NCBI RefSeq assembly: GCF_900113185.1
Contig: NZ_FOZD01000001.1
Coordinates: 744,001 to 808,000, forward strand
DNA length: 64,000 nt
Direction: 5' to 3'
Source: Agromyces sp. CF514
GTDB taxonomy: Bacteria; Actinomycetota; Actinomycetes; Actinomycetales; Microbacteriaceae
Of the stretch, positions 2,028-8,380 are shown piece after piece. Numbering within the stretch: the stretch's first letter is position 1; each line of letters opens with the position of its first letter. The translations under genes and the position numbers were made by a program. The notes below the pieces were generated by a model that worked only from the letters and a program-made list of their open reading frames with translations, ran no database searches and was not told the origin of the DNA.

Positions 2028-3110
2028 ATGCAGGCATCCGGCATCGAGCGCTCGTCCGGCGAGCCGCAGGGCCCCGCCTCCGCACGTGCGGCCGGTGTCC
2101 GCGACGTCGCCGCGCTCGCCGGAGTGTCGCGCCAGACCGTCTCGCGCGTGCTGAACGAGCATCCGCAGATCAAGGAGTCGACCAGGCGTCGGGTCATGGA
2201 CGCGATCGCCGAGTTGCAGTACACCCCGAACTTCGCCGCCCGGGCGCTCGGCACCAGGCGGTCGCGCACGATCGGCGTGCTCGCGTCGGACTCGCGCCAC
2301 TACGGTCCGTCGACGAGCATCGCCGCGCTCGAGGCCGCCGCGCGCGCGGCCGGGCACTGGGTGAGCACGGCCTACGTCGACTCGGCAGACCTCGGGTCGG
2401 TCTCGGCCGGCATCGCGCACCTGCGAGGGCAGGCCGTCGACGGCATCGTCGTGGTCGCGCCGCACGTGCGCGTGCTCGAGGCGCTCGACGAGCTGCGTGT
2501 GGACGTGCCGGTCGTGACGCTGCTCGCGGGTGGGCGGGGCGTCAGGGGCGACGGCGGCGACCGCAGCCCCGCGGTCGACCAGGTCGAGGGTGCCCGCATC
2601 GCGACGCGTCACCTCGTCGAGCTCGGGCACACGCGCATCGCGCACCTCGCAGGCCCGTCCGACTGGCTGGAGTCGAGCTCGCGCGAACGGGGATTCGAGC
2701 TGGAGCTCGCCGCGCACGGCCTCGAGCCGGCCGCGATCGTGCGCGGCGACTGGTCGGCCCGATCGGGCCACGACGCCGGCGAGGCGCTGCTCGGGGATTC
2801 GGCTGCCGAACCGCCGACGGCCGTCTTCGCCGCGAACGACCAGATGGCGCTCGGCCTCATGCGGTACGTGCGCGAGCACGGCGGCGACGTGCCCGGCTCG
2901 CTGAGCCTCGTGGGCTTCGACGACATCCCCGATGCCGAGTACTTCTGGCCGCCGCTCACGACCGTGCGGCAGGACTTCGACGAACTCGCCCGCCGCGCGG
3001 TCGCGGCGCTCGTCGAACGACCCGAACGGCCGGATGGGGCGGATGCCGCGGCGGACCGTCCGATGCTCGTGCCCGAGCTGATCGTGCGCGAGTCGGCCGC
3101 GCGCCGCTGA
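2028..3110 (+). CDS. LacI-family transcriptional regulator
   Basis: The 360-residue protein has a LacI-type DNA-binding head at about residues 23-75: V-R-D-V-A-A-L-A-G-V-S-R-Q-T-V-S-R-V, then a hinge with N-F-A-A-R-A-L. A periplasmic-binding-protein-like effector and dimerisation domain fills the remainder (start I-G-V-L-A-S-D-S; end F-D-D-I-P-D-A-E-Y-F-W-P-P-L-T-T-V). Such proteins repress sugar genes until a sugar or sugar phosphate binds. A GGAAGGA ribosome binding site precedes the ATG. No sugar gene is adjacent, so the target is unknown. The arabinose operon 5.5 kb downstream has LacI-type palindromes and is a possible but unproven target. Confidence 0.9.
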   Translation: MQASGIERSSGEPQGPASARAAGVRDVAALAGVSRQTVSRVLNEHPQIKESTRRRVMDAIAELQYTPNFAARALGTRRSRTIGVLASDSRHYGPSTSIAALEAAARAAGHWVSTAYVDSADLGSVSAGIAHLRGQAVDGIVVVAPHVRVLEALDELRVDVPVVTLLAGGRGVRGDGGDRSPAVDQVEGARIATRHLVELGHTRIAHLAGPSDWLESSSRERGFELELAAHGLEPAAIVRGDWSARSGHDAGEALLGDSAAEPPTAVFAANDQMALGLMRYVREHGGDVPGSLSLVGFDDIPDAEYFWPPLTTVRQDFDELARRAVAALVERPERPDGADAAADRPMLVPELIVRESAARR

Positions 3111-3120
3111 GCAGCGGCGG

Positions 3121-3714
3121 TCAGAGCCGCTCGAACACCGCGGTCATGCGCTTCGCGACGAGCTCGGCATCGACGTCGCGGTCGATCGTGAGCCGCACGA
3201 GGTACCCCTGCACCGAGGTCAGCAGGGCGTCGGCGATCGCCTCGGCGGCCGCCTCGGGCCGGGCCCTCGTGCGCTCGTCGCGTGCGGGGTCGCCGCACCA
3301 CGGGAGCAGTGCTTCGCGCACATGGGAGCGCAGTTCGACGAGACTGCGAGAGGCGATCTCCTCGAGCTCGGGGTCGCGCGGCACGTCGGCCCAGATCTGC
3401 AGCAACGACTGCGCCCGGTCGGAGCGGTGGCTGGCCTCGAGCAGGTGCGCGAGCACGACCGCGGGCGTGCGCTCGGCGGGCAGCCCCTCGCTCACGGCCG
3501 CCAGCAGTTCGCGCATCGCGCTCGAGGCGGTGTAGCGCACGAGCTCGGCCTTGCCCGCGAAGTGGGAGTAGACCGAGCCGGCCGAAGACCCGGCCTCGGC
3601 GATGATGTCGGCCATCGAGGTGCCGGCGAAGCCGTTGCGGGCGAAGCAGCGCATCGCCGCAGCGGCGATGGCCTCGCGCCGCTGCAGCTTCGTGGACTCG
3701 TTCAGTCTCGGCAT
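3121..3714 (-). CDS. TetR-family regulator
   Basis: This 197-residue protein has a TetR N-terminal HTH at about residues 12-58 (R-R-E-A-I-A-A-A-A ... F-A-G-T-S-M-A-D-I-I-A-E-A-G-S-S-A-G-S-V-Y-S-H-F). The helical ligand-binding half ends A-V-F-E-R-L. The start at 3714 is preferred over an upstream in-frame ATG at 3786 because family proteins start a few residues before the first helix. It is divergent from the CocE-type hydrolase gene; an imperfect dyad overlaps the -10 region of that gene, so the simplest reading is that this repressor controls the hydrolase. It ends ten bases from the convergent LacI gene. Confidence 0.88.
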   Translation of the reverse strand: MPRLNESTKLQRREAIAAAAMRCFARNGFAGTSMADIIAEAGSSAGSVYSHFAGKAELVRYTASSAMRELLAAVSEGLPAERTPAVVLAHLLEASHRSDRAQSLLQIWADVPRDPELEEIASRSLVELRSHVREALLPWCGDPARDERTRARPEAAAEAIADALLTSVQGYLVRLTIDRDVDAELVAKRMTAVFERL

Positions 3715-3842
3715 GCTCGGCGACCCGTCACGCTCGGCCTCCTCGGTGGTGCGGCGCGGTTCGCCGACTCGCGTCCATCGTGTCACGGGCCGTCGGCGTC
3801 GAGGTCGAGGTGCCCGACGACCCGCAGCGAACTCCCAGTCAA

Positions 3843-3865
3843 ACAGAATGAATGTTCCGTATGAT
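3843..3865 (+). promoter_or_regulatory. Candidate TetR operator overlapping a -10 box
   Basis: The dyad ACAGAA-N6-TTCCGT (five of six arm positions pair) at 3843-3860 runs directly into TATGAT at 3860-3865, a good -10 box. It lies in an unusually AT-rich patch between the divergent TetR and hydrolase genes, roughly 95 bases before the hydrolase start. Confidence 0.4.
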
Positions 3866-3959
3866 GATCTCGACCGGGCGGCACGACCATCCGGCCCCCG
3901 ATAGAACGGACCGAATCGCAGCCCGCCATCGGATGAACCGAGAAGAGGAGCTCACCCTC

Positions 3960-5699
3960 ATGAGCGAAGTCCAGAAGATCACCATCCCGTCGAGCCCGCT
4001 GCCCCCCGCGCGCACCGGGGTGCTCACCCCGTTCGAGCCCGGCACCCGCACGCTCGAGGCCGGCTTCCAGATCGCCCCGCAGTTCAAGCCGCTGCCCGTC
4101 GACGTCATCTTCGAGAAGGACGTCGCGATCACCCTCCGCGACGGCGTCACGATCTACACCGACGTGTTCCGGCCCGTCACCGACGAGCCCGTGCCGGTCA
4201 TCGTGGCGTGGAGCCCCTACGGCAAGGCGCAGGGCACCTCGCTCAGCGTCATGGGCGTGTTCGGCCTGGTCGGCATCCCGAACTCGGTCGTCTCGGGCCT
4301 CGAGAAGTTCGAGGGCGCCGACCCGGCCTACTGGGTCGAGCAGGGCTACGCGCTCTGCCATCCCGACATCCGCGGCGTCGTCGACTCCGAGGGCGACAGC
4401 GTGCTCTGGGACCGTCAGGACGGCCGCGACGCGTACGACGTGATCGAGTGGCTCGCCGAGCAGGACTGGTGCAGCGGCAAGGTCGGCATGAGCGGCACCT
4501 CCTACCTCGCCGTGTCGCAGTGGTTCGCGGCCGCCGAGCAGCCGTCGCACCTCGCGGCCATCAACCCGTGGGAGGGCGTGAGCGACGTCTACCGCGACCT
4601 CGTGAAGCGCGGCGGCATGCCCGACACCGGGTTCGCGCGCCAGCTGCAGACGGGCAGCTTCTTCGGCAAGGCCGGCAAGGAGGACATCCTCGCCGAGGTC
4701 GAGGCGTACCCGCTCGTGAACGAGCTCTGGGAGCACAAGATCCCCGAGTTCGACCGCATCACGGTGCCCGCCTACGTCGTGGCCAGCTATTCGAACACCC
4801 TGCACACGGCCGGCACCTTCCGCGCCTGGCGCCGCATGGCCTCCGAAGAGAAGTGGCTGCGCATCCACAACACCCAGGAGTGGCCCGACTACTACGACGA
4901 GGGCAACGTCGACGACCTGCGCCGCTTCTTCGACCGCTACCTCAAGGGCGTCGACAACGGGTGGGAGCAGACCGCCCGAGTGCGCTACTCGGTGCTCGAC
5001 CTGCAGGGCGGCGACCAGGTGAACCTCGAGGCCGAGAGCTTTCCCCCGGCGGATGTCGCGTCGACCCGGTTCTACCTCGACGGGCGTTCGCGCACGCTGA
5101 CCACGACGGTGCCGACGGATGCCGCGACCGCGTCGTACGTCGTCGGCTCGAACCCCGAGGCGGTGTCGTTCCTCGCCCGCTTCGACGAGGAGACCACGCT
5201 CGTCGGCTATCCGAAGGCCCACCTCTTCGTCGAGGCGCGCGACGCTGACGACCTGGACCTCTTCGTGCTCGTGCAGAAGCTCGACGCGCACGGCACGCCG
5301 CTCGAGGCGTTCACGGTGCCGAACCAGGGCGCGATGGCGCACGACCTCACCGACCACGGTGCCACGATCCTGAAGTACAAGGGCTCCGACGGCCGCCTGC
5401 GCGTCTCGGCGCGGCACCTCGACGAGACGCTGTCGACCGACGACGTGCCGGCGCACGCCTTCGACCGGGTCGAGAAGCTCTCGCCCGGCGAGGTCGTCGA
5501 GATCGAGATCGACCTGCTGCCGGTCGGCCTCGCGTTCCACGCCGGCCAGCAGCTGCGGTTCGTCGTCAGCTCGGCGAACCTGCTCGGCACGATGATGCCC
5601 GGCATCCGCGAGTACGTCGGCGAGAACCGCGGCGAGCACGTGATCCACACGGGCGGCGAGCGCGCCTCGTACCTGCAGCTGCCCGTGCAGGCGCGCTAG
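3960..5699 (+). CDS. CocE/NonD-type serine hydrolase (S15 family)
   Basis: The 579-residue product has the CocE/X-prolyl-dipeptidyl-peptidase plan. An alpha/beta-hydrolase core holds the nucleophile motif G-T-S-Y-L (Ser about 181) after V-G-M-S. The strand R-D-G-V-x-x-x-x-D-V-F-R-P is typical near the N-terminus. A C-terminal jelly-roll domain (about 330-579) includes F-L-A-R-F-D-E and ends with the G-L-A-F-H-A-G-Q-Q-L-R-F-V-V-S-S strand. Family members hydrolyse esters or amides such as cocaine, acyl esters and X-Pro peptides; the substrate here is unknown. No signal peptide is seen. The ATG at 3960 has AGAAGAGGAG upstream; an earlier in-frame ATG at 3934 has no comparable site. The gene is probably controlled by the divergent TetR protein. 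Confidence 0.88.
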   Translation: MSEVQKITIPSSPLPPARTGVLTPFEPGTRTLEAGFQIAPQFKPLPVDVIFEKDVAITLRDGVTIYTDVFRPVTDEPVPVIVAWSPYGKAQGTSLSVMGVFGLVGIPNSVVSGLEKFEGADPAYWVEQGYALCHPDIRGVVDSEGDSVLWDRQDGRDAYDVIEWLAEQDWCSGKVGMSGTSYLAVSQWFAAAEQPSHLAAINPWEGVSDVYRDLVKRGGMPDTGFARQLQTGSFFGKAGKEDILAEVEAYPLVNELWEHKIPEFDRITVPAYVVASYSNTLHTAGTFRAWRRMASEEKWLRIHNTQEWPDYYDEGNVDDLRRFFDRYLKGVDNGWEQTARVRYSVLDLQGGDQVNLEAESFPPADVASTRFYLDGRSRTLTTTVPTDAATASYVVGSNPEAVSFLARFDEETTLVGYPKAHLFVEARDADDLDLFVLVQKLDAHGTPLEAFTVPNQGAMAHDLTDHGATILKYKGSDGRLRVSARHLDETLSTDDVPAHAFDRVEKLSPGEVVEIEIDLLPVGLAFHAGQQLRFVVSSANLLGTMMPGIREYVGENRGEHVIHTGGERASYLQLPVQAR

Positions 5700-5712
5700 G
5701 GCCGCGCGAACT

Positions 5713-5752
5713 CCCGGGCGAGGCAGCGGCCGCCTGCCCCGCCTCGCCCGGG
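5713..5752 (+). terminator. Strong hairpin terminator
   Basis: The 12-base perfect inverted repeat CCCGGGCGAGGC (5713-5724) pairs with 5741-5752, and the inner GGCAG/CTGCC segment can extend the stem. It begins 14 bases after the hydrolase stop. There is no T-tract, as is common in high-GC actinobacteria. Confidence 0.7.
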
Positions 5753-5822
5753 CTTCACGGGCCGACGTGCCCGGAACGACGACAGGCGTAGTCTGGCGAG
5801 CATCGCCGGGGAGGGGTGCCGC

Positions 5823-7451
5823 ATGGTCCAGGAACGCGGTGAGGCGGCGCCGGTGCGTCGCATGGAACTCCGGCGGCGGCGAGCGGGGCTCGCGGACCCC
5901 CTGCCTCCCGCGGAGATGCCGCACCTCACCCGGTACGTCACCGACGGCCGCCCGGAAGCCGCACCCGACGGGTCGAGCGTGGCCGACGGACTCCGGTTCG
6001 CCGAAGCGGCATCCGACCGCATGGCGATGTTCTTCTACCCGGCGCCGACCCCGGGCGCCGTGGCCGAGCTGGCCGACGCCTGGCACCTGCATCCGCTGCT
6101 CGTCGAAGACCTGCTGCACGCGCACCAGCGACCCAAGCTCGACCGCTACGGCGACGTGCTCTTCCTCGTCGTGCGGTCGGCGCGGTACCTCGACGAGTCC
6201 GAGGAGGTCGACTTCGCGGAGTTCCACATGCTGGTGCGCCCCGGCGCGGTCGCGGTGCTCTGCCAGGACAAGCGGTGGATCGATGGTACCGACGGCACCG
6301 ACTTCGACGAGAGCGAGGTGATGAGCTCCGATCGCCGGGAGCGCACCCTCCTCGCCGATGCGCCGCTGCTGCGACTCGGACCCGAGGCCGTCGTCTACCG
6401 ACTGCTCGACGCGATCGTCGACGGCTACGCGCCGGTGCTCCAAGGGCTCGCGGTCGACAAGGAGCAGATCGAGCGGCAGGTCTTCAGCGGCGACGCCGCC
6501 GTCGCCGAGCGCATCTACCGGCTGAGCCAGGAGGTGATCGACATGCAGCACGTCACCGCCTCGATGACGGAGGTGCTCGATGCGCTGCGCAAGGGCTTCG
6601 GCAAGTACGACATCCCCGACGAGCTGCAGGCCTACCTCGAATTCTTCGAGAGCCCGGCGGTGCGCTGCATCAACTTCACCGGGTCGGACCGCACGGCCCG
6701 CATCCTCGGCGAGCGGGCCGGGCGTTCGCTCAAGCGCATGGTGCTCGAGCTCGGCGGCTTCAACCCGGTCATCGTCCTCGACGACGCCGATATCGACGAG
6801 TCGATCAAGGCGGTGACGTTCGGGGCGTTCCTGCACCAGGGTCAGGTCTGCATGAACTCCCGCAAGGTGTACGTCGCCCGGTCGCTCCACGACGAGTTCG
6901 TCGCGGGGCTCGTCGATCGGGTGCGGTCGCTGAAGACCGGCGATCCGACGGATCCTGCGGTCGTCATCGGCCCGCTGATCGACGACCGCGCGGTCGAGCA
7001 GACGGAGGCCAGGGTGCGCGATGCGCTCGATCGCGGAGCGACCCTCGTCACCGGCGGGCGCGCCGAGGGGCGCGTGTACGAGCCCACCATCCTCACGCAC
7101 GTGCCGTCGGACGCGATCTGCACGACGGGCGCCGACGAGACGTTCGGCCCGTTGCTCGTGGTCGAGGCCTTCGACGACCCCGAGGCGGCCTTCCGCGATG
7201 CGCAGGCCACGCGCTACGGTCTCAGCGCGTCGATCATGACGCGGGATCGGGCGCGGGGCCTGGATCTGGCGCAGCGCTTCGACACCGGGATCGTGCACGT
7301 GAACGCGCCGACCATGGCGAGCGAGGCCGCCCTTCCGGTCGGCGGGGTCAAGGACAGCGGATGGGGCAGGTCGGGTCACTACTCGATCGAGGACTTCACC
7401 GAGATCCGTCTGACGACGACGAGCAGCGGACCGGGCGTGTATCCCTTCTGA
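5823..7451 (+). CDS. Chimeric ORF: CorA cytoplasmic domain fused to C-terminal aldehyde dehydrogenase
   Basis: This single open frame of 542 codons has two unrelated parts. Residues about 55-271 match the soluble N-terminal domain of CorA-type Mg2+ channels (W-H-L-H-P-L-L-V-E-D, R-P-K-L-D-R-Y-G-D-V-L-F-L-V-V, and the stalk-helix stretch M-Q-H-V-T-A-S-M-T-E-V-L). The membrane helices and G-M-N motif are absent. Residues about 274-542 match an NAD-dependent aldehyde dehydrogenase from N-F-T-G-S onward, with the catalytic Glu (V-L-E-L-G-G, Glu309) and Cys (G-Q-V-C-M-N, Cys343) intact. The first half of the NAD-binding domain is missing. Codon use is normal on both sides and GAGGGG precedes the ATG. 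The junction is near base 6640. It looks like an in-frame deletion fusion of two genes, or an assembly chimera. Neither original activity is likely to be complete. Confidence 0.85.
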   Translation: MVQERGEAAPVRRMELRRRRAGLADPLPPAEMPHLTRYVTDGRPEAAPDGSSVADGLRFAEAASDRMAMFFYPAPTPGAVAELADAWHLHPLLVEDLLHAHQRPKLDRYGDVLFLVVRSARYLDESEEVDFAEFHMLVRPGAVAVLCQDKRWIDGTDGTDFDESEVMSSDRRERTLLADAPLLRLGPEAVVYRLLDAIVDGYAPVLQGLAVDKEQIERQVFSGDAAVAERIYRLSQEVIDMQHVTASMTEVLDALRKGFGKYDIPDELQAYLEFFESPAVRCINFTGSDRTARILGERAGRSLKRMVLELGGFNPVIVLDDADIDESIKAVTFGAFLHQGQVCMNSRKVYVARSLHDEFVAGLVDRVRSLKTGDPTDPAVVIGPLIDDRAVEQTEARVRDALDRGATLVTGGRAEGRVYEPTILTHVPSDAICTTGADETFGPLLVVEAFDDPEAAFRDAQATRYGLSASIMTRDRARGLDLAQRFDTGIVHVNAPTMASEAALPVGGVKDSGWGRSGHYSIEDFTEIRLTTTSSGPGVYPF

Positions 7452-7504
7452 CCCGGTTCGGCCCGGGGCTCGCGGATTGACTCCGAGCCTCGGCCGAGGC
7501 AGAA

Positions 7505-7542
7505 TGTGACCGGTCACAGTGGCGGATGCCGCGACCGGTCGC
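7505..7542 (+). promoter_or_regulatory. Tandem operators of the arabinose operon
   Basis: The perfect palindrome TGTGACCGGTCACA (7505-7518) is followed by a second, GCGACCGGTCGC (7531-7542), with centres 25 bases apart. The central CG and the TGTGA arms are typical of LacI/GalR-type operators. They lie about 120-155 bases before araD, so a LacI-type AraR probably binds here cooperatively. The binding protein itself is not identified. Confidence 0.65.
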
Positions 7543-7660
7543 AATGGAGGACGAACGCCGTGAGTGCAGCACCCCGGGCATCGATGCCCGACCGAACCGC
7601 AGAGCCCGCCCGGTGTCGGACCGCATCGGATCGCAGTACCGTTTCAGGCGTGGTGACGGC

Positions 7661-8380
7661 ATGAGCGACACGACCCCGGCCTTCGATCCCGAGACCGAAC
7701 TCGCCATCGCCCGCGTCCGCGCAGACGTCGCGAAGTTGCATGCGGAGTTGACGCGGTACGGCTTGGTGGTGTGGACGGGTGGCAACGTGTCGGGTCGGGT
7801 GCCGGGTGCGGAGTTGTTCGTGATCAAGCCGTCGGGGGTGTCGTATGACGATCTGGCTCCGGAGAACATGATCCTGTGCGATCTGGACGGCAACGTGATC
7901 GAGGGAACTCCGGGTGCTGAGCGGGCTCCGTCGTCGGATACGGCGGCGCATGCGTACGTGTATCGGAACATGCCCGAGGTCGGGGGTGTGGTGCACACGC
8001 ATTCGACCTATGCGGTGGCGTGGGCGGCGAGGCATGAGCCGATCCCGTGCGTGATCACGGCGATGGCCGATGAGTTCGGTGGTCCGATCCCGGTGGGTCC
8101 GTTCGCGATCATCGGTGACGACTCGATCGGTCGGGGCATCGTGGAGACCCTGACTGGTCACCGCAGCCGGGCGGTGTTGATGGCCAATCATGGGCCGTTC
8201 ACGATCGGTGCGTCGGCGAAGGACGCGGTCAAGGCTGCGGTCATGGTCGAGGATGTCGCCCGCACGGTGCACCTGGCACGTGAGGCGGGCCCGTTGGTCC
8301 CGATCCCGCAGGAAGCGATCGACCGGTTGTACGACCGGTACCAGAACGTCTACGGACAGAGCGGAGATGCCCGACGATGA
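7661..8380 (+). CDS. araD: L-ribulose-5-phosphate 4-epimerase
   Basis: This 239-residue class II aldolase-fold enzyme converts L-ribulose-5-phosphate to D-xylulose-5-phosphate, the last arabinose-specific step. Visible motifs are W-T-G-G-N-V-S-G-R and K-P-S-G-V near the phosphate site, and H-T-H-S-T-Y, which supplies two zinc-ligand His residues; a further H-G-P-F-T-I segment follows. The ATG at 7661 fits the family N-terminus; an upstream in-frame ATG at 7526 adds only low-complexity Arg-rich sequence. The gene overlaps the kinase gene by four bases (ATGA). From about base 7738 to 8340 the codons shift to T- and G-ending forms (GGT, TTG, GAT), unlike both neighbours, while the first 26 codons are native-like. 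That suggests an imported or converted segment. Confidence 0.93.

Follow-up and report, generated by a model that had tools for sequence, protein, structure and literature searches.

CorA Mg2+ channels, such as that of Thermotoga (TmCorA; 3jcf, 2bbj and 4eeb), consist of an N-terminal soluble domain, a stalk helix and two C-terminal membrane helices with the GMN motif, and ion conduction is impossible once the membrane helices are gone. Aldehyde dehydrogenases (ALDHs; PF00171), among them the vanillin and salicylaldehyde dehydrogenases (9ihb, 6qhn and NahF, 4jz6), combine an NAD-binding half with a C-terminal catalytic half; an ALDH deprived of the former is not expected to oxidise aldehydes, even with the Glu and Cys of the thioester step in place. 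In the window, the whole 64,000-nucleotide stretch of Agromyces sp. CF514 DNA that was analysed, a single reading frame is made up of parts of both protein types. It resembles the deletion-derived chimeric reading frames and gene remnants of bacteria in that halves of unrelated genes are joined at one base with loss of their counterparts, in a single genome and with nothing to suggest that selection has long acted on the two as a unit, but differs from them in being still fully open and in frame, inside an acquired island.

Architecture of the fused reading frame

The frame at 5823–7451 of the forward strand is uninterrupted, as the original prediction had it, and encodes 542 amino acids. Residues 1–273 constitute the soluble part of CorA and residues 274–542 the catalytic half of an ALDH. 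Pfam locates CorA (PF01544, 61 bits) at residues 74–261, equivalent to model positions 11–184 of 292, and Aldedh (PF00171) at residues 274–529, equivalent to model positions 200–459 of 461. Neither GMN nor the two C-terminal membrane helices were found within the 542-residue fusion, and the NAD-site motifs TPWN and IKPSE are likewise missing from it, leaving the NAD(P)-binding domain incomplete. The Pfam and motif checks thus agree with the earlier description of a CorA soluble domain devoid of membrane helices and GMN, followed by a C-terminal ALDH half. The ALDH general base (Glu309, in LELGG) and the catalytic Cys (Cys343, in GQVCM) are both retained, at the positions originally assigned to them. 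Against relatives, the CorA half reaches E values down to 1e-147 and the ALDH half down to 1e-157, similarities far beyond chance. Structure prediction from a shallow alignment gave the fusion a mean pLDDT of 54, with values below 50 across residues 200–311; an intact ALDH, modelled as a control with an alignment of the same shallow depth, came out equally poor (mean pLDDT 48.7), so that the predicted structure provides no argument either way.

Full-length relatives of both parts exist as separate genes. The CorA half is 61–88% identical to intact CorA proteins, the closest being that of the congener G008 (83–88% amino-acid identity; 88% over the tree columns, in a starred sister group). Its best solved relatives are the Thermotoga CorA structures, with which residues 1–273 align over the N-terminal soluble domain and the first part of the stalk helix. 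Unlike these channels, the fusion's CorA part stops just before the conserved (Y-L-x)-D-V-x-D-H of the stalk helix, with the remaining stalk, the two membrane helices and GMN all missing; intact CorA relatives go on as DVSDHL...YGMNF through the stalk helix to a final W-M.

The ALDH half is closest to a protein of Leifsonia sp. Leaf264 (G269; 88% amino-acid identity), and its best solved relatives are the vanillin and salicylaldehyde dehydrogenases, to whose C-terminal catalytic half residues 274–542 correspond, with both catalytic residues and a complete C terminus. In intact ALDH relatives, approximately 220 further residues precede the point of the join and include TPWN and IKPSE; the fusion is without these first ~220 residues and their NAD-site motifs. 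The same ALDH, at 74–78% identity, is present in Sphingomonadales metagenome bins (L072–L075, L077 and L079), several of them from lichens, which suggests either transfer between phyla or mis-binned contigs. In another ALDH relative, from a Candidatus Leucobacter sulfamidivorax metagenome-assembled genome (L071), an in-frame stop or frame break interrupts the aligned part.

The island between lacI and araD

The fusion is flanked on both sides by arabinose genes (Table 1). In the congeners G008, G004, G044, G059 and G040, a LacI orthologue of 86–90% identity lies directly before araD, and araB and araA follow in those whose homology runs on; araD itself has 85–92% DNA identity to congeners. In alignments with the window, congener homology stops at 3109–3120 and resumes at 7461–7500; for G004, the blocks end at 3109 and restart at 7461, with 19 bp between them. 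This interruption therefore defines an inserted island of approximately 4.35 kb, composed of a TetR gene on the reverse strand and, on the forward strand, a CocE/NonD hydrolase gene and the corA–ALDH fusion, a setting that the original prediction had missed. The island ends right at the stop codon of the fusion, approximately 25 bp before an ara promoter-like site that is conserved in five congeners together with an overlapping operator-like TGTGACCGGTCACA. Its edges have no direct repeats above 6 bp, and it contains no insertion-sequence gene. As judged from these alignments, the island is evidently an acquired cluster that entered between lacI and the promoter of araDBA.

Table 1. Positions of the fusion, the island and the flanking arabinose genes in the window.
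Feature	Position	Strand	Basis or remark
LacI-family regulator of the arabinose operon, native left flank	2028–3110	+	Pfam/NCBIfam LacI
Inserted island	3111–7460		Short gap only in congeners; right edge uncertain, 7451 to ~7475
TetR-family regulator, divergent from CocE	3121–3786	−	TetR_N
CocE/NonD family hydrolase, intact	3852–5699	+	TIGR00976, 229 bits versus cut-off 66.3
5′ corA part: soluble domain and start of stalk helix	5823–6641	+	PF01544; closest G008 CorA
Join point, codon GAA / codon TTC	6641–6642	+	Both sides aligned with intact relatives
3′ ALDH part: catalytic half, Glu309, Cys343, stop codon	6642–7451	+	PF00171 model 200–459; closest G269
araD promoter-like site TTGACT-17-CAGAAT, native right flank	7477–7505	+	Sole promoter-like match in 2900–7800
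araD, L-ribulose-5-phosphate 4-epimerase, native right flank	7664–8380	+	NF005123 above cut-off

The same genome has another araD (G000:C1:978679-979377), which shares 94% identity with that in the window, and many congeners likewise have two. The lacI–araD gap (loci L148–L152) varies within the genus. It measures ~20–100 bp in three species; in G040 (L152) it extends to ~600 bp and includes tandem GAGCAGCGGCACATGA-like repeats, in G059 (L151) it contains a long poly-G/poly-C stretch, possibly an assembly artefact, and in the window it is occupied by the 4.35-kb island.

Orthologues of the island CocE are 71–81% identical to it, and in G320 one of them is divergent from a TetR gene whose product is 53% identical to that of the island. 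CocE orthologues have a corA of this type as their neighbour in G335, G169, G388, G137 and Arthrobacter sp. HMWF013; in G335, CocE is followed by corA on the same strand, as in the window, with 78 bp between them. In Leifsonia Leaf264, CocE adjoins this ALDH. CocE also occurs in 7 of the 8 other ALDH-bearing genomes, some of which are congeners of each other, versus 18 of the 399 genomes of the family sample overall. Since both corA and ALDH neighbour CocE elsewhere, it is plausible that both halves of the fusion were members of one acquired cluster. The original prediction had proposed a search of related genomes for a full corA beside a full ALDH gene; no such pair was found among ~30 loci, each gene neighbouring CocE in different genomes. 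Nor was any genome found in which TetR and CocE stand in a row with complete corA and ALDH genes, only CocE–corA and ALDH–CocE pairs being seen. Two dissimilar TetR types accompany CocE/NonD genes in different genomes, one shared by the window and G320 (3121–3786, L118 and L175) and a commoner one (L062, L080 and L121–L125).

The join and the lost halves

DNA comparison with intact relatives showed that homology switches at one bond, between bases 6641 and 6642, giving an exact position to a join previously placed near 6640. The corA DNA of the congeners G008, G028 and G041 matches the window up to 6637–6641, and the ALDH DNA of G023 and G039 matches it from 6642 onward. Across this site (join marked by a slash), G008 corA reads ...CTGCAGGCCTACCTCGAA/GACGTC, the ALDH genes mostly ...GTG/TTCTTCGAGAGC and the fusion ...CTCGAA/TTCTTCGAGAGC. 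Because no overlapping bases are needed, the join looks blunt and without microhomology when judged from these relatives. The GAATTC site reported at 6639–6644 is indeed present; it is a by-product of the join, and an EcoRI-ligation artefact was rejected on the ground that neither parental type has GAATTC there in the relatives examined.

The window is part of contig C1 (2.86 Mb) of a 4.3-Mb genome in four contigs, rated 100% complete. The lost C terminus of CorA (stalk end, membrane helices and GMN) is absent from the whole assembly, other contigs included, its best match being a paralogous CorA on contig C3 (59% over 68 residues). The lost N-terminal NAD-binding half of the ALDH is also absent from the whole assembly, where paralogous ALDHs match at 41% or less. 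Relatives usually have an amidohydrolase gene ahead of this ALDH; it too is missing from the genome (best match 30% or less), which fits a loss of the stretch preceding ALDH. The absence of all of these from an essentially complete genome indicates that the material was lost rather than moved; a reciprocal translocation was rejected, the missing halves being nowhere else in the genome.

Age and origin of the fusion

A second CorA–ALDH fusion was found neither in 60 genomes of the genus, 400 genomes of the family (Microbacteriaceae) and 396 genomes of the order, nor in a GTDB scan of 84,980 species (one genome per species, with six 8-residue patterns, three per half), nor in 72,556 PLSDB plasmids. 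The same fusion in several species, which would have marked it as a real conserved protein, was therefore not seen, and a conserved fusion family was rejected, no other species in the collections searched having the CorA–ALDH domain order. Literature searches returned neither a CorA–ALDH fusion nor any directly relevant paper.

Neither half has decayed. The CorA half is changed at 0 of 42 columns otherwise invariant among 40 CorA relatives and the ALDH half at 1 of 128 columns otherwise invariant among 20 ALDH relatives, which is no worse than in intact genes. In plain pairwise comparisons between existing sequences, the median dN/dS was 0.285 for the CorA half (0.319 among intact pairs) and 0.149 for the ALDH half (0.193 among intact pairs). 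An old pseudogene in long neutral decay is excluded, with excess change in neither half. The event would be recent, because neither half shows relaxed selection; the lack of decay in itself fits a recent event, continued selection on a functional protein or an assembly error alike.

The original prediction had offered a deletion fusion, an assembly chimera and a repurposed protein as alternatives. The sharp in-frame join, the lost halves, the lack of decay and the single occurrence favour the first of these, and its last is disfavoured by occurrence in one genome. The likely origin is a recent in-frame joining, in the simplest case by deletion, of corA and ALDH within an acquired TetR–CocE cluster, of which the frame would be a young double-gene remnant rather than a new system. 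Such a cluster, bringing corA and ALDH, would have been inserted between lacI and araD; deletion of the segment between the two genes, probably by illegitimate end joining without microhomology, would then have joined the first 273 codons of corA in frame to the last 269 codons of ALDH, with loss of the CorA stalk end, both membrane helices and GMN, and of the ALDH NAD-binding half. We infer a deletion, rather than another kind of join, no genome with all of the genes intact in a row having been found. A real join of a different kind, by insertion or transposition of one piece beside the other in two independent acquisitions, would accommodate the lack of any extant genome with corA and this ALDH in one cluster, the CocE neighbours lying in different genomes, as well as the closest corA sitting at another place in a congener. 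Two events that meet in frame would be needed, however, and the island lacks both edge repeats above 6 bp and insertion-sequence genes; we consider this origin improbable.

An assembly or library chimera, in which corA and ALDH would both be full-length in the genome and the piece between them would have been dropped by the assembly, could account for a fusion seen in one assembly only, for a sequence without decay and for the odd EcoRI site at the join. It is nevertheless an unlikely explanation: the missing halves are not on any other contig, the join lies approximately 750 kb inside its contig in a genome of only four, comparison with relatives revealed no shared repeat there that could make an assembler skip, and EcoRI ligation needs GAATTC in both parents. 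Repurposing of the fused frame as an expressed and retained protein, for example a soluble CorA-domain protein with an ALDH lobe in an ester- or thioester-handling or scaffold role, would be in keeping with the intact frame, start site and stop, the retained catalytic Glu and Cys and the failure to detect relaxed selection. Yet the same features would be expected of a young neutral fusion, the frame has lost half of the NAD-binding fold, the cut falls inside the CorA stalk helix, and a fusion known from a single genome lends repurposing no positive support, making it very unlikely. The specific form in which the soluble CorA domain, perhaps still able to bind Mg2+ or to assemble, serves as control or scaffold for an ALDH lobe without NAD binding, as a new protein under selection, is most improbable.

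For the deletion-type remnant, the surviving frame, start site and stop mean that a 542-residue protein may be made, but this product would be inactive, with neither ion transport nor NAD-dependent oxidation expected, and two accessory genes of the island would have been destroyed. Such a remnant would matter little beyond annotation, as a clean example of an acquired catabolic island starting to lose genes, with the frame open by chance; should the fusion prove functional, it would show a new domain combination arising in an unusual way, at its very beginning. An automated pipeline would label the frame an aldehyde dehydrogenase, wrongly crediting the strain with one, or count it as a CorA channel. 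The paralogous CorA on contig C3 is a full 359-residue frame with GMN, and Mg2+ uptake therefore probably has a backup.
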